This document shows, in pieces, positions 5,681 to 61,180 of a DNA stretch of 64,000 nt (the stretch's first letter is position 1; each line of letters opens with the position of its first letter). The stretch is from assembly GCF_003268615.1 (NCBI RefSeq), contig NZ_CP029844.1, positions 496,001-560,000 on the forward strand, given 5' to 3'. The position numbers were made by a program, and so were the translations under genes. Origin of the DNA: Blattabacterium clevelandi. Its GTDB lineage: Bacteria > Bacteroidota > Bacteroidia > Flavobacteriales > Blattabacteriaceae. Under the pieces are notes generated by a model. The model ran no database searches. It saw nothing but the letters and a program-made list of their open reading frames with translations, and was not told where the DNA came from.

Positions 5681-7048
5681 TTAAAAGCTATTTTCATAGG
5701 CTATCCATCCTGCTTTTCTATAATTTTCTGCAACTATTTTTGGATTATCGGATTGATAAATAGCTTTTCCAACAATAATAAAATCGCTATTTTTTTTTAT
5801 AAAAGCTTGATTAGGATGAATGTAAGTATTTCCTTCATAGTTTTTTCTTGAATCAGAAAAATGTATACCAGGAGTAAACAATAATAATCTATTGTCAACT
5901 TTTCTTTGTGCTACTGTTCCAATTACTTTTGAATTTTTTAAAGAAATATTTAATGCTTTTCTTATATAGTTATCATCAGATAATCTACCATAAGAAGACA
6001 TTTCAGATATAGTAATTAACCCAATATTAGAAGGAATATTTAAATTTTCTATACTTTTACTTCCTGCAAGTACATGTACTGTAATCACATCTGCCCAAGA
6101 AGAAATTTTATGTATTCCATGATGTAGTTGAAGATAATTTGTAGGTCCTACATCGCATAATTTTCTATCTTCAAATAACAAAAATTTCTTTTTTAAAGAA
6201 ATTTTTTTAAGAAAGTGGATGAATGAAAATGAAAAATCACTAATAATATCTACATGAAGCTTTAATCCACAAATTTGATCTCCAATTAAATTGACTAATT
6301 CTAAAATTTTTTCAGAATGTATTAAATCTGCTGAAACGATCAAATTAGTTTTTTTTTTCAATGCTATATCAATCAGTTTTTTTCCTATTGGATGATAAAT
6401 TTTTTCTTTTTTTTCTTCATAAGAAATACGTTTTTTCTGAATGTTTTTTATATTTTTTTTTTGGAAAAAAAACTTAATTATATGTATTTCTTTTTCTTTT
6501 AAAAGATTTTTTTTTTCTAATATTTTTAAAACTTCTCCTATACGAAATAAAGATCGTATATTAAATCCTTTATTTTTTATATTTTCTATTCCTCCTTGTT
6601 CACGATCAAGAATAGATAAAATATTTTTTATAATCAATCCTTCTTTTTCAATATCTATTACTGTTTTTAATAAACTATCTCCACTTGTGATTACATCTTC
6701 TATGAGAAGACAGTTTTGTCCTTTTTTGTAAATTCCTTCTATCATTTTTTTTGTTCCATAACCTTTATTTTCTTTTCTTTTAATAATTAAAGGAATATTA
6801 GATCTTAATGATAAAGTAGTAGCTATTGGCAAAGCTGCATAAGGTACTCCACAAATTAATTCAAATGTATGAGGCGGAACTTCGTTTAAAAGAAGATCCG
6901 ATAGTTTTATTAATAAATCTGGTCTAGAAGCAATTGGACGAAAATCTATATATATGGGAGAATTCATTCCGCTTTTTAAGGTAAAATGACCAAATTTAAT
7001 AATCCCTAAATTATAAATTTTTAAAAAAAACTGTTCCTTGTCCTTCAT
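5681..7048 (-). CDS. pyrEF: Bifunctional orotate phosphoribosyltransferase / OMP decarboxylase (UMP synthase type fusion)
   Basis: One 455-residue chain carries the last two steps of UMP synthesis. Residues 1-200 are OPRT: FGHFTLKSGMNSPIYIDFR at the start and the PRPP loop LLIEDVITSGDS at 114-124. Residues 220-455 are OMP decarboxylase with the catalytic Asp/Lys/Asp array in LFEDRKLCDVGPT (about 291-303), then FTPGIHFSD, IIVGKAIYQ and YRKAGWIAYE. The EDRK and YRKAGWxAY forms resemble eukaryotic UMP synthase more than E. coli PyrF, and the domain order is the same as in animals and plants. A Lys-rich linker separates the domains. Divergent from pyrD, so pyrimidine genes are clustered. Confidence 0.93.
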   Translation of the reverse strand: MKDKEQFFLKIYNLGIIKFGHFTLKSGMNSPIYIDFRPIASRPDLLIKLSDLLLNEVPPHTFELICGVPYAALPIATTLSLRSNIPLIIKRKENKGYGTKKMIEGIYKKGQNCLLIEDVITSGDSLLKTVIDIEKEGLIIKNILSILDREQGGIENIKNKGFNIRSLFRIGEVLKILEKKNLLKEKEIHIIKFFFQKKNIKNIQKKRISYEEKKEKIYHPIGKKLIDIALKKKTNLIVSADLIHSEKILELVNLIGDQICGLKLHVDIISDFSFSFIHFLKKISLKKKFLLFEDRKLCDVGPTNYLQLHHGIHKISSWADVITVHVLAGSKSIENLNIPSNIGLITISEMSSYGRLSDDNYIRKALNISLKNSKVIGTVAQRKVDNRLLLFTPGIHFSDSRKNYEGNTYIHPNQAFIKKNSDFIIVGKAIYQSDNPKIVAENYRKAGWIAYENSF

Positions 7049-54788: not shown

Positions 54789-55433
54789 ATGTCTTTAATT
54801 CTTAATTTAGAAACTTCTACAAAAAATTGTTCAGTTAGTATTTCCAAAAAGGGAGTATGTATTACATCTATAGAAGAATGTTCGGAACAATATCTTCATT
54901 CAGAAAAATTACATATATTTATACAATATGCTATAAAAATTTCTAAAATTGATATAAATGATTTGCAATCAATTTGTGTTAGCAAAGGACCTGGTTCATA
55001 TACTTCACTAAGAATAGGAATATCTGCCGCTAAAGGTTTGTGTTTTTCATTAGGAATACCTTTATTATCGTTGGATACATTAACAATTATGAGTCAAAAG
55101 ATAGATATTAAAGATGGATATTTAATACCTATGATACATGCAAAATCCGATTTTTTTTATACTTCCTTATTTAATAGATTTAAAGAAAGAGTAGCCCCTA
55201 TCTCTATAAAAAAACTCAATGATAAATATTTTAAATTTATCACAAAAAATCAAAAAGTATATTTTTTTGGAAATATAAATTTTCAAAAAAAAGAAAAAAA
55301 TTTATTTACAGATTATTTTCATTTTTTTTCTCATATTTATCCATCTGCAATGGATATGGCTTTTCTTTCTTATGTTAAATTTTGTAATAAAAAGTTTAAT
55401 AAAATTGAAGAATTTATTCCTTTTTATTTATGA
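54789..55433 (+). CDS. tsaB: tRNA threonylcarbamoyladenosine biosynthesis protein TsaB
   Basis: Partner of TsaD in making t6A37 of ANN-decoding tRNAs. The ASKHA-fold N-terminus SLILNLETSTKNCSVSISKKG, the HSEKLHIFIQYAI helix, and SICVSKGPGSYTSLRIGISAAKGLCFSLGIPLLSLDTL are diagnostic. At 214 residues the C-terminal lobe is present and ends IEEFIPFYL. Followed within 22 bp by the hemC remnant on the same strand. Confidence 0.93.
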   Translation: MSLILNLETSTKNCSVSISKKGVCITSIEECSEQYLHSEKLHIFIQYAIKISKIDINDLQSICVSKGPGSYTSLRIGISAAKGLCFSLGIPLLSLDTLTIMSQKIDIKDGYLIPMIHAKSDFFYTSLFNRFKERVAPISIKKLNDKYFKFITKNQKVYFFGNINFQKKEKNLFTDYFHFFSHIYPSAMDMAFLSYVKFCNKKFNKIEEFIPFYL

Positions 55434-55454: not shown

Positions 55455-56448
55455 ATGAAAAAAATAAAAATATATATTTTTTGGAATAGGATTATTCAAA
55501 TTGGGAAAAAAATAGTCCATTAGAAGTTTATCAAACTATAAAAGTTCAAACTTTTATTCAAAAAAAAGGTTATTTTTCTCGTTGATTTTTTATAAAATCT
55601 GAAGGAAATTTCATTCAAAATATTCCTATTCTATTCATAAATTTAAAAAATAAGTTTTTTTTATTAGAAAAATAATTCAGTTCATGCTTTAAGGAGTCAT
55701 TGATATTGCTGTTCATTCTTTAAAATAGGTTCTAACTATCTAACTAAATTACCATAAAAATCGTCCTTTCTTCTTCTTATTGAAAGAAGGATATTTTTGT
55801 TTATGACTTAGTAGTATATAATATAAAAAAGGATCCAATAATTTTTTTTTATTAGATTCAAATATCCATGCTATTATAGCTCCTGGAAGTCTTAGGGGGT
55901 AATTTTTGGAAAAATCGTTATCCACATCATAATATTGTATATTTATTTAAAAGGAAATATAAATACAAAATTAAAAAAATTACGTAAAAATTATTGTAAA
56001 GAAGCTATTTTTACAAAAATAGGATTGGAACGTTTAGGAATATGACATAATTTAGAGTGGTTAAATTTTCAAGTATTAAATTGGATGATCCATTATCCTG
56101 GAAAACGAACTATTGTAGTTACTACATTAAAAAAAAATGATTTTATTCATCATTTAACTCAAAAATTTGATGATAAGTGAACTAGATTATTTGAAAATGT
56201 AAAGCGGAAGTTTTTGAGAAATTTATAATGTAAATGTATGAATATTATAGGTGCTCATGCGTTTTTTTTAAATAAATAAAATTACTTATTTTACAGGAAT
56301 ATTATTCAGTTTAGATGGTATGAAAAAAATACAAAAAACAAAAATAGGATCTCATAATAATTTTATCGGAATTGAATGTGCTAAGGAAATATTAGAAAAA
56401 GGTGGGATGGAAATTTTGAAAAAAATCAGGGGAAAAAATATTTCATAA
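55455..56448 (+). pseudogene. hemC: Decayed hydroxymethylbilane synthase
   Basis: Three frames together give an HemC protein from N- to C-terminus. Pieces in order: SPLEVYQTIKVQTFIQKKGYF (from 55514), then a TGA at 55583 and FIKSEGNFIQNIPI; GVIDIAVHSLK (from 55693, other frame); GNINTKLKKLRKN and EAIFTKIGLERLGI (from 55953) followed by TGA at 56043; HNLEWLNF with DWMI-like NWMIHYPGKRTIVVTTLKK; KRKFLRNL then IIGAHAFFLNK (cofactor-Cys region); and SLDGMKKIQ with IGIECAKEILEKGGMEILKKI at the end. These match HemC blocks in the right order. At least five stops and two or more frameshifts make it non-functional; decay looks fairly recent because the blocks are still easily read. Confidence 0.88.
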
Positions 56449-56454
56449 TAAATC

Positions 56455-58209
56455 ATGATCCAAATTAATTTCCGAAAATTATTACCGTTTTTGACTCCAA
56501 TTATATTTTTATATATAATTATTTCTTTAGGATGGAAAACTTCCATAAATCCTTTTTTTAATATAGGAATACTTATTGGAATGATGTTAATATTAAGTTT
56601 TTTTCATTTTTTAATCCTTTTTGAAAAAACATTGGATAAAGGATATCAATCTATGATATTTTTATCTTTTTTCGTTTTTATTCCCTCTCTACTATTTTCT
56701 ATTGGAAAAATTTTGTTTTCTAATAACGTAACAATTACAGATTTAAGAGGGGTTTTATTAACGAGTTTAACTATATATATATTAATTCGCATTACCTATT
56801 TTATGCGAAAAATATACGTAAAAATTAATAATCCTATTTTTATTTTTATTACTAGTTTTGTATTTCTATCTTTTTTAGGATCATTATTTCTAATGTTACC
56901 ATCATCAACCGTTAAAAAAATATCATTTATAGATGCTTTATTTACTTCTACTAGTGCTGTATGTGTTACTGGATTAGGGGTATTAGATACTTCTAAAGAT
57001 TTTACCCATTTAGGAAAAGTTATTATTCTAACTTTGGTAGAACTTGGGGGATTGGGAATTTTAACCGTAACTTCTTTTTTTAGTTATTTTTTTAGGGATG
57101 GTTTTTCTTTTAGAGAGGGGATTTATATAAGCAATTTTTTAAATACAAAGACTACAAATAATGTTCTTTTTTTAGCTGTAAAAGTAGTTTTATTTACTTT
57201 AATAGTAGAAATGGTAGGGGCTTTATTGATTTATCTTTCTATTAAGAACGAAAGGAATATTATAGAATCTGATAGTCCTTTATTTTTTTCTATTTTTCAT
57301 TCCATATCTGCTTTTTGTAATGGAGGTTTTTCGACTCTTAGTAAAGGGCTTTATTCTGAATCTGTAAGATTTAATTATTTATTACAATTTATTATTGCAT
57401 GTTTATTAATATTGGGAGGAATAGGTTTTAATATTTTATTTAATTTTTTTACATATATATGGTTAACGTTAAAAAAATATTTTTACAAAATTTTTAAAGA
57501 TGAATATTTTAGATGTCCTGTACATATTTTCACTTTAAATACAAAAATTGTTTTATTTACAACCTTTTCTTTACTTTTTTTTGGAACTATTTTTTATTAT
57601 ATAAGCGAATATCATTATTCACTTTCAGAACATTCTTCTATTCTTGGAAAGTGTATTGTTTCATTTTTTTCTTCTGCTACATCTAGAACAGCTGGATTTC
57701 AAGTATTAAATATGGAAAAATGGACTCCATTCACTATATTATTTACTATTTTTTTGATGTGGATTGGTGCATCTCCTGCTTCTACCGGTGGAGGTATTAA
57801 GACAAGCACTTTTGCATTAGCATTAATGAATATTATCTCTTTATCTATAGGAAAAGATAGATTAGAAATTCAAAGAAAAGAAATTTCTTCAAAATCTGTT
57901 AGACTTGCTTTTGCCATTATAATATTATCTCTCATTATCATATATATAAGTATTTTGATTATTCTTCTTTTAGATCCAAAAAAAGATATTTTATCTATTT
58001 TTTTTGAAGCTTTTTCTGCTTTTTCAACAGTAGGATTATCTTTAGGAATTACTCCTAATTTATCCAATGGAAGTAAATTAGTTTTAATTACTTTGATGTT
58101 ATTAGGAAGAATAGGCGTTTTTAATATTATGATAGGATTATTAAAAAGAAATAGAATAAATTCTTCTTATTATTATCAATATCCTCAAGAATATATTCTC
58201 ATCAATTAA
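56455..58209 (+). CDS. trkH: TrkH/KtrB family potassium uptake membrane subunit
   Basis: The K+ translocating subunit with four M1-P-M2 repeats. Selectivity-loop segments are FTSTSAVCVTGLGVLDT, HSISAFCNGGFSTLSKG, SATSRTAGFQVLNM and EAFSAFSTVGLSLGITP, each with the conserved Gly. MWIGASPASTGGGIKTSTFALALMNI is a family hallmark. Extra N-terminal helices give 584 residues. Pairs with trkA 6 bp downstream. Starts 7 bp after the hemC remnant. Confidence 0.94.
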   Translation: MIQINFRKLLPFLTPIIFLYIIISLGWKTSINPFFNIGILIGMMLILSFFHFLILFEKTLDKGYQSMIFLSFFVFIPSLLFSIGKILFSNNVTITDLRGVLLTSLTIYILIRITYFMRKIYVKINNPIFIFITSFVFLSFLGSLFLMLPSSTVKKISFIDALFTSTSAVCVTGLGVLDTSKDFTHLGKVIILTLVELGGLGILTVTSFFSYFFRDGFSFREGIYISNFLNTKTTNNVLFLAVKVVLFTLIVEMVGALLIYLSIKNERNIIESDSPLFFSIFHSISAFCNGGFSTLSKGLYSESVRFNYLLQFIIACLLILGGIGFNILFNFFTYIWLTLKKYFYKIFKDEYFRCPVHIFTLNTKIVLFTTFSLLFFGTIFYYISEYHYSLSEHSSILGKCIVSFFSSATSRTAGFQVLNMEKWTPFTILFTIFLMWIGASPASTGGGIKTSTFALALMNIISLSIGKDRLEIQRKEISSKSVRLAFAIIILSLIIIYISILIILLLDPKKDILSIFFEAFSAFSTVGLSLGITPNLSNGSKLVLITLMLLGRIGVFNIMIGLLKRNRINSSYYYQYPQEYILIN

Positions 58210-58215
58210 AAAAGT

Positions 58216-58914
58216 ATGAAAATTATAATTATTGGGTTAGGAAATTTTGGAAGATCTTTAGCACTTAATTTAACAGATAACGGACATGAAGTTTTTGGAG
58301 TAGATCACAAAATGGAAAAAGTTGACTTATTAAAAGATCGTATAGCCAATGTAGTTTGTATGGACGCTAATAACGAATTAGCTTATAAAGTATTGCCTAT
58401 ACAACAAGCTAATTTAGGAATTGTTGCTATTGGAGAAAATGAAGGTGCATCAATAGTAACCACGGCTATATTAAAAAAATATAAAAATCTTAGAATAGTC
58501 AGTAGATCTTTATCAAAGATACATGATACTATATTAGAAGCTATGGGAATCAATGATGTCATTCACCCGGAACAAGACGCAGCTTTTCGATTGACAAAAC
58601 AAATTTCTTTTAATTATGCTTTAGATTATTTTCGAGTAGATAATAAACATTCTATTGCAGAAGTTTTTTCTCCATATTCCTTTAGTGAAAAATCAGTTAA
58701 AAGTCTTCAACTAACACAAAAATATTCTGTTTCCTTAATTACTGTAATACGAGAAATTAAAAATTCTATTTCATTCAATGAAAAATCTAAAAAAAAAGTT
58801 ATAGGATTGGTTACTGGGGATACTATTTTACAAAAAGGAGATATATTGACTCTTTTTGGATCTAATAAATCTATAATGAATTTTTTAAAAGATCAATTAA
58901 CAAATAATGATTAA
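58216..58914 (+). CDS. trkA: TrkA/KtrA family potassium channel regulatory subunit
   Basis: Cytoplasmic NAD(H)/ATP-binding regulator of TrkH. The RCK Rossmann motif KIIIIGLGNFGRSLALNLTDNGHEVFGVD is at the N-terminus, with VVCMDANNELAYKVL, LGIVAIGENEGASIVTTAILKK and GINDVIHPEQDAAFRLTKQI. A TrkA_C domain covers about 150-232 and ends GDTILQKGDILTLFGSNKSI. Single-unit form (232 residues), as in KtrA. Confidence 0.95.
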   Translation: MKIIIIGLGNFGRSLALNLTDNGHEVFGVDHKMEKVDLLKDRIANVVCMDANNELAYKVLPIQQANLGIVAIGENEGASIVTTAILKKYKNLRIVSRSLSKIHDTILEAMGINDVIHPEQDAAFRLTKQISFNYALDYFRVDNKHSIAEVFSPYSFSEKSVKSLQLTQKYSVSLITVIREIKNSISFNEKSKKKVIGLVTGDTILQKGDILTLFGSNKSIMNFLKDQLTNND

Positions 58915-59290
58915 AATACTTATGAAAAAATACGGAGATGATTCTTTTTTTTCTAAAATTTTGTAATTTTTTATCCATAAAATATTCCATTTTAGATAAA
59001 AAACCTATTTTAAATGATCAACTTATTTTTACTATTTTTATCTGAAGTTTATAAAAAATTCTTTCTTCCTAAATAAATCAAAAATTTATCTAGTTATCAT
59101 GGAATCATTTTTAAAAATAAAATACAATATAATTCTAAAACGGAATTTTTTTCTATAGGTAAAAAAACAGCTAACGCTAACTTTGTTTCAATTTTTTTAT
59201 ATATCAAAAAATATGGATCCCAAATAATCCTTCTTTAAAAAAAGTTTTTATAATAATATGAATATTTTTTTTAGTTAAAAATCATTTTTT
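58915..59290 (+). pseudogene. Unidentified decayed gene fragment between trkA and actF
   Basis: No intact gene is present. On the plus strand, short pieces have protein-like composition: LSIKYSILDKKPILNDQLIF near 58970-59040 and then NLSSYHGIIFKNKIQYNSK followed by TEFFSIGKKTANANFVSIFL and YIKKYGSQ (about 59088-59230), broken by stops. The second piece has Gly, His, Cys-free polar residues and a plausible codon pattern, unlike neighbouring spacer. I could not name the family. It may equally be chance. Confidence 0.4.
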
Positions 59291-60568: not shown

Positions 60569-61180
60569 TTATCTATTTATTTTTTTTAGATACATTACAT
60601 ATTCGGATAATTTCCATCTATCCCTTTCATTTAATTGAGAAGCATAAGAATTCATATTATTTTTACCATAAGTAATAACCTTATAAACACTTCCAATAGT
60701 AAGATCTCTATCTTTATAATTAGGAATACCGAATATTTTTTCATTTTTTACTAAAATTCCTTTTCCATCACCATTATCACCATGACATATAGAACAATTT
60801 ATTTTATATAATTTTTCTCCATTTTTTACGTTATTTTTTGATTTATCCTTGTTTTTTTCTTTTTTTTCCAAAATTGAGGGGTCACATTCTTGATAGTTTT
60901 TTTTTTTGTAAGAAAGAAATTCATAAAAATTATTGGGAATAGTTCCTTTTACTGGTAAAAGAGAGGAAGTTTTTTCTTTTAAAAAAAGAGGAATTTTTAT
61001 TTTTTTAACATTTTTTTTGTAATTAGGATATGGTTCTGAATAAGGTTCATAAGCATCCGAATAATACATATCTGGCATATATACTCTATTGGGTTTTGAT
61101 TTATCAAACCAACAGGAATTCAATCCTGCATTAATAAATAACAAAAGTAAAATAATATAAAAATATTTATGATTCATCAT
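60569..61180 (-). CDS. actE: Alternative complex III monohaem cytochrome c lipoprotein ActE
   Basis: A lipoprotein: signal peptide and lipobox around AGLNSC (Cys23), then VYMPDMYYSDAYEPYSEPYPN, typical of ActE. The single haem c site is CSICH (129-133) in YKINCSICHGDNGDGKG, and the likely Met ligand is in NNMNSYASQLNERDRWKLSEYV. It passes electrons from quinol oxidation toward the terminal oxidase. It needs covalently bound haem, which is notable beside the decayed hemC gene 4 kb away. Length 203. Confidence 0.92.
   Translation of the reverse strand: MMNHKYFYIILLLLFINAGLNSCWFDKSKPNRVYMPDMYYSDAYEPYSEPYPNYKKNVKKIKIPLFLKEKTSSLLPVKGTIPNNFYEFLSYKKKNYQECDPSILEKKEKNKDKSKNNVKNGEKLYKINCSICHGDNGDGKGILVKNEKIFGIPNYKDRDLTIGSVYKVITYGKNNMNSYASQLNERDRWKLSEYVMYLKKINR

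Follow-up and report, generated by a model that had tools for sequence, protein, structure and literature searches.

The window considered here is the whole 64,000-bp stretch of DNA that was analysed, taken from a Blattabacterium genome that we designate G000. The remains of hemC lie in it between two intact genes, a few kilobases from the operon for alternative complex III. The features of this region are as follows:

54789–55433, + strand: tsaB-like gene (TsaD/TsaB family), intact, upstream of hemC; synteny anchor
55482–56451, + strand: hemC (porphobilinogen deaminase) pseudogene, delimited by tblastn and by alignment to the intact orthologue in G047, the symbiont of Cryptocercus kyebangensis
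56455–58209, + strand: TrkH/KtrB-like potassium transporter gene, intact and present in 49/49 genomes; synteny anchor
58216–58914, + strand: ktrA/trkA-like gene (TrkA_N), intact, between the places of hemC and hemD
58947–59288, + strand: remnant of hemD, the uroporphyrinogen-III synthase gene of the hemC locus, in pieces that lie in different frames
60569–61180, − strand: actE, mono-haem cytochrome c subunit of alternative complex III, CxxCH motif intact

The TrkH/KtrB-like gene was named from inspection and from its position beside a TrkA-type gene, without a Pfam call. The hemD remnant lies between the ktrA-like gene and actF, and is an open frame in several relatives (224 aa in Bge, for example).

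Blocks of hemC homology follow one another in order on the + strand from the tsaB-like gene to the transporter gene. Aligned with the G047 gene, positions 55482–56451 are 85% identical at the nucleotide level and contain eight frameshifting indels and nine internal stop codons. The original prediction of a readable hemC pseudogene, with its blocks in the correct order and several stops and frame changes, is thus borne out, and the limits it gave (55455–56448) are correct to within 30 bases. With the intact HemC of G047, the closest relative that still has a whole gene, as query, tblastn recovered window pieces at 55508–55945, 55633–55896, 55950–56285 (159 bits) and 56275–56445 (102 bits), with a third score of 71 bits; the top score obtained anywhere in the window with 200 shuffles of the same query was 31.6 bits. 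One fragment also passes the PF01379 cut-off, at 26.6 bits. The sequence is therefore homologous to the HemC family (PF01379/PF03900), and with its frame broken it is not a member of that family as a working enzyme. Substitutions relative to G047 are spread evenly over the three codon positions (52/39/48), unlike those in the adjoining intact transporter gene (21/13/66). A second hemC outside the window had been considered possible, and a search of the whole 620,771-bp assembly (two contigs, 99.5% complete) disposes of it, returning fragments at 55482–56451 only.

A tree of four proteins places G000 as sister to G041 (strain Cpu), with G047 next. The G000 plasmid is 94–97% identical to plasmids of the C. 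punctulatus and C. kyebangensis symbionts, and a comparison over 3,300 bases shows no difference between the G047 plasmid and that of the C. kyebangensis symbiont (100% identity). The source genome is a Blattabacterium of the Cryptocercus punctulatus group. We also note that plasmids NC_017925.1 (Blaberus giganteus symbiont) and NZ_CP029809.1 (C. punctulatus) are both 96.7% identical to the G000 plasmid with equal coverage; the closeness of NC_017925.1 to a Cryptocercus plasmid conflicts with host relationships, and that entry is possibly mislabelled or the sequence shared. Because two frameshifts and one internal stop are common to the hemC sequences of G000 and G041, the gene was inactivated in the common ancestor of the two, which had by then separated from the line of the C. 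kyebangensis symbiont, whose hemC is intact. The region is rich in AT homopolymers, where sequencing or assembly error might be expected to disfigure a functional gene, and we give this reading a negligible probability: error would have to account for all eight frameshifts and nine stops, for 15% divergence distributed evenly over codon positions and for lesions held in common with G041, a strain that was sequenced separately.

Across the genus, hemC is intact in 8 of 49 genomes (G004, G017, G018, G030, G040, G042, G043 and G047). An intact cysI, and a cobA scoring above its curated cut-off, are found in exactly the same eight. The three genes thus occur together in 8/8 genomes versus 0/41, the remaining 41 having none of them intact (Fisher p = 2e-9, uncorrected for descent). 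If the module is taken to be ancestral and never regained, the protein tree yields 11 losses with midpoint rooting, 11–17 over alternative rootings and at least 10 when weak branches are collapsed, and every inferred loss removed hemC, cobA and cysI together. The hemD copy associated with hemC (in the order hemC, potassium transporter, ktrA, hemD) is confined to genomes in which hemC is still readable. Models of Bge metabolism already have siroheme made from imported porphobilinogen (PMC3819652, PMC3287516), and sulfate assimilation is known to be present in some Blattabacterium strains only (PMC6039017); the co-loss of hemC, cobA and cysI is measured here over 49 genomes. By this measure hemC is a member of a siroheme and sulfite reductase module, and since its co-occurrence with cobA and cysI is perfect, the hemC pseudogene has an ordinary place in the breakdown of sulfate assimilation.

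The siroheme module of Bge comprises hemC, hemD, cobA (SUMT), sirC and cysIJ, and its genes occupy the same places in G000. Both genomes have the orders tsaB–hemC–ktrB–ktrA–hemD and cysN–cysE–cysK–cobA–cysJ–cysI–sirC. Unlike in Bge, each step specific to siroheme synthesis or sulfate reduction that was tested in G000 is broken except cysJ: cysN is interrupted, cobA is fragmented and contains stops, two short pieces are left of cysI and one of sirC, and hemC and hemD are the remnants described above, with cysE and cysK also open. The members decay together in each of the partly decayed genomes (G000, G041, G045 and G028), of which G041 has lost nearly all of the module apart from cysJ, and G045 and G028 represent separate, independent decays. 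The spacer between tsaB and the potassium transporter gene shows a graded erosion across genomes, from about 1000 bp where hemC is intact down to about zero. Short 3′ remnants of hemC persist in the narrowing spacer of G003, G011, G020, G027, G033 and G034. G028 (L215, L171), which is related to the B. germanica symbiont, looks like a young, independent loss of the module: a single break interrupts the hemC frame, only two short end pieces of cobA are left, and cysI retains just the first half of its length. In G047, where hemC, cobA and cysI are intact, the hemD frame shifts close to a stretch of 11 A residues (L143, about positions 6110–6140), which may be early decay, slippage rescue or a sequencing error.

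We consider it very probable that the decaying hemC encoded an enzyme whose product, hydroxymethylbilane, served only the route through uroporphyrinogen III to siroheme for CysI, and that it was lost with sulfate assimilation. HemC would have used porphobilinogen supplied by the host, neither HemA nor HemB being encoded. Ring closure by HemD would have been followed by conversion to siroheme through CobA and SirC, siroheme being the cofactor that CysI, the assimilatory sulfite reductase, requires. When the C. punctulatus lineage gave up sulfate assimilation, the loss of sulfite reduction presumably relaxed selection on hemC, and cysN, cysI, cobA, sirC, hemC and hemD decayed as one module. The haem of ActA, ActE and cytochrome oxidase would be host-derived, as it would have been before hemC was lost.

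Causation in the opposite direction, with hemC lost first (for example when the host ceased to supply porphobilinogen) and pulling down siroheme synthesis and sulfite reductase after it, predicts an identical co-occurrence of hemC, cobA and cysI. G045 and G041, moreover, keep readable pieces of hemC, so relative timing is not fixed by them. In G028, however, a single frame break in hemC is set against the truncated cobA and cysI noted above, and in G000 hemC is recognisable over nearly its whole length as against about 75 of 558 codons of cysI, although deletion size is a weak clock. The heavier erosion of the cysI/cobA end in both genomes would favour sulfite reduction having been lost first, and we regard an initial loss of hemC as rather improbable. 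In G000 itself cysI, cobA, sirC and hemC are all broken already, which is compatible with either order of loss within its lineage.

The remaining alternatives concern respiratory haem, with which hemC was associated in the original prediction. The act operon is intact, as was predicted: actA–actF are all open frames, and CxxCH occurs once in ActE and six times in ActA, which lies just beyond the window edge. COX1 (haem-copper oxidase) is carried by 49/49 genomes, irrespective of the state of hemC. These cytochromes are kept, and therefore haem is needed. Yet hemA, hemB, hemE and hemH were each found in 0/49 Blattabacterium genomes, including the eight with intact hemC, by searches that, among 14 control genomes, gave matches in 8 to 11; the test covered these four genes alongside hemC. 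With four steps missing, the protohaem pathway was already broken, and because genomes with an intact hemC lack them too, the loss of hemC did not create the requirement for external haem. It is true that a dead hemC with retained cytochromes is what would be seen if that loss had severed the symbiont's own haem pathway and made respiration newly reliant on host haem or a late porphyrin. For the sampled genomes this reading is refuted by a dependence older than the loss and by the retention of COX1 with or without intact hemC, and we hold it to be extremely improbable. Equally remote is a scheme in which haem was made from siroheme by the Ahb route, so that the loss of hemC ended haem synthesis too: siroheme-dependent haem synthesis is described for archaea (PMC3004389), but COX1 is retained in every one of the 41 genomes that cannot make siroheme. 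On gene content, hemC feeds no recognisable haem pathway in any sampled genome. The protohaem pathway of Blattabacterium has been published as host-dependent (PMC9603385), and host dependence for haem is old and already known; hemC loss adds nothing to it. The suggestion that haem or a porphyrin comes from the host therefore holds as far as external haem is required by the cytochromes kept, and fails in tying hemC to respiratory haem. Another route, also envisaged, finds no counterpart in the 49 genomes, where hemA, hemB, hemE and hemH were not found, and the loss of hemC does not mark a point of metabolic dependence for haem, as hemC tracks cobA and cysI instead.

Two further genes, on contig C1 of G000, have outlived the module to which they seem related:

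L210:3893–5530 (G000:C1), + strand: cysJ, open
L210 15963–16706 (G000:C1:276963–277706), − strand: orphan HEM4 (HemD-like) gene beside glmS

PF02602 is matched in 47/49 genomes, and we considered reading this as near-universal retention of hemD; the matches are mostly to the orphan HEM4 paralogue instead, and in G043 the sole PF02602 copy is the hemD by hemC. About 45 of the 49 genomes have the orphan, which is missing from G010, G023 and G043 and broken in G022, and its dN/dS of 0.08–0.26 in the pairs compared indicates strong purifying selection. Hydroxymethylbilane cannot be made in 41/49 genomes, and therefore the orphan could work there as an ordinary uroporphyrinogen-III synthase only on imported substrate. 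That function is unlikely.

All 49 genomes contain cysJ, which encodes the NADPH flavoprotein of sulfite reductase, although 41 of them lack an intact CysI. In these 41, cysJ is a full-length open frame in 30, split in 3 and reduced to the FAD/NADPH part in 8, the extent of the open frames of G037 and G005 being approximate. The breaks in these 11 genomes fall at about residues 200–235, in the linker after the flavodoxin module (residues 65–192 in Bge), and have arisen on at least six branches as read by eye from the tree. The FAD/NADPH module is always retained and the flavodoxin module repeatedly lost or split off. Values of dN/dS for cysJ are 0.18–0.28 in four sister pairs without CysI, all in one large clade, and 0.22–0.26 between pairs with CysI, which indicates purifying selection much alike with and without the partner; they rise to 0.36–0.52 in the Cryptocercus pairs and in several further ones. 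A solitary cysJ had been recorded earlier in one strain (PMC3287516). The likeliest reading, to which we give about an even chance, is that CysJ has taken on a second role as a general NADPH reductase of flavodoxin or ferredoxin and so supplies other reductive enzymes.

The decay of the hemC module resembles the parallel 'domino' gene losses reported in Blattabacterium, including strains of C. punctulatus and M. darwiniensis (Kinjo 2018, 2021; Neef 2011, as recounted in PMC9603385), in that functionally linked genes have gone together, repeatedly. The siroheme branch of Buchnera (cysG with or without hemC/hemD) is another case of an insect symbiont keeping late tetrapyrrole steps for sulfite reductase, and it is alike in its host-supplied precursors and in the hemD pseudogenes of some strains (PMC3890641). 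It differs in belonging to an unrelated bacterium and in that a single CysG performs the multistep conversion to siroheme.

Proximity to a cytochrome operon does not by itself tie a hem gene to haem; where a genome is reduced, the surviving pathway around the gene decides. G000 stands usefully between the C. kyebangensis symbiont, in which hemC, cobA and cysI are all intact, and strain Cpu, in which the module is nearly erased. With at least 10 parallel losses of one module, the genus offers good material on the order in which linked genes die, and the surviving cysJ points to a second role for the flavoprotein of sulfite reductase that is directly testable.
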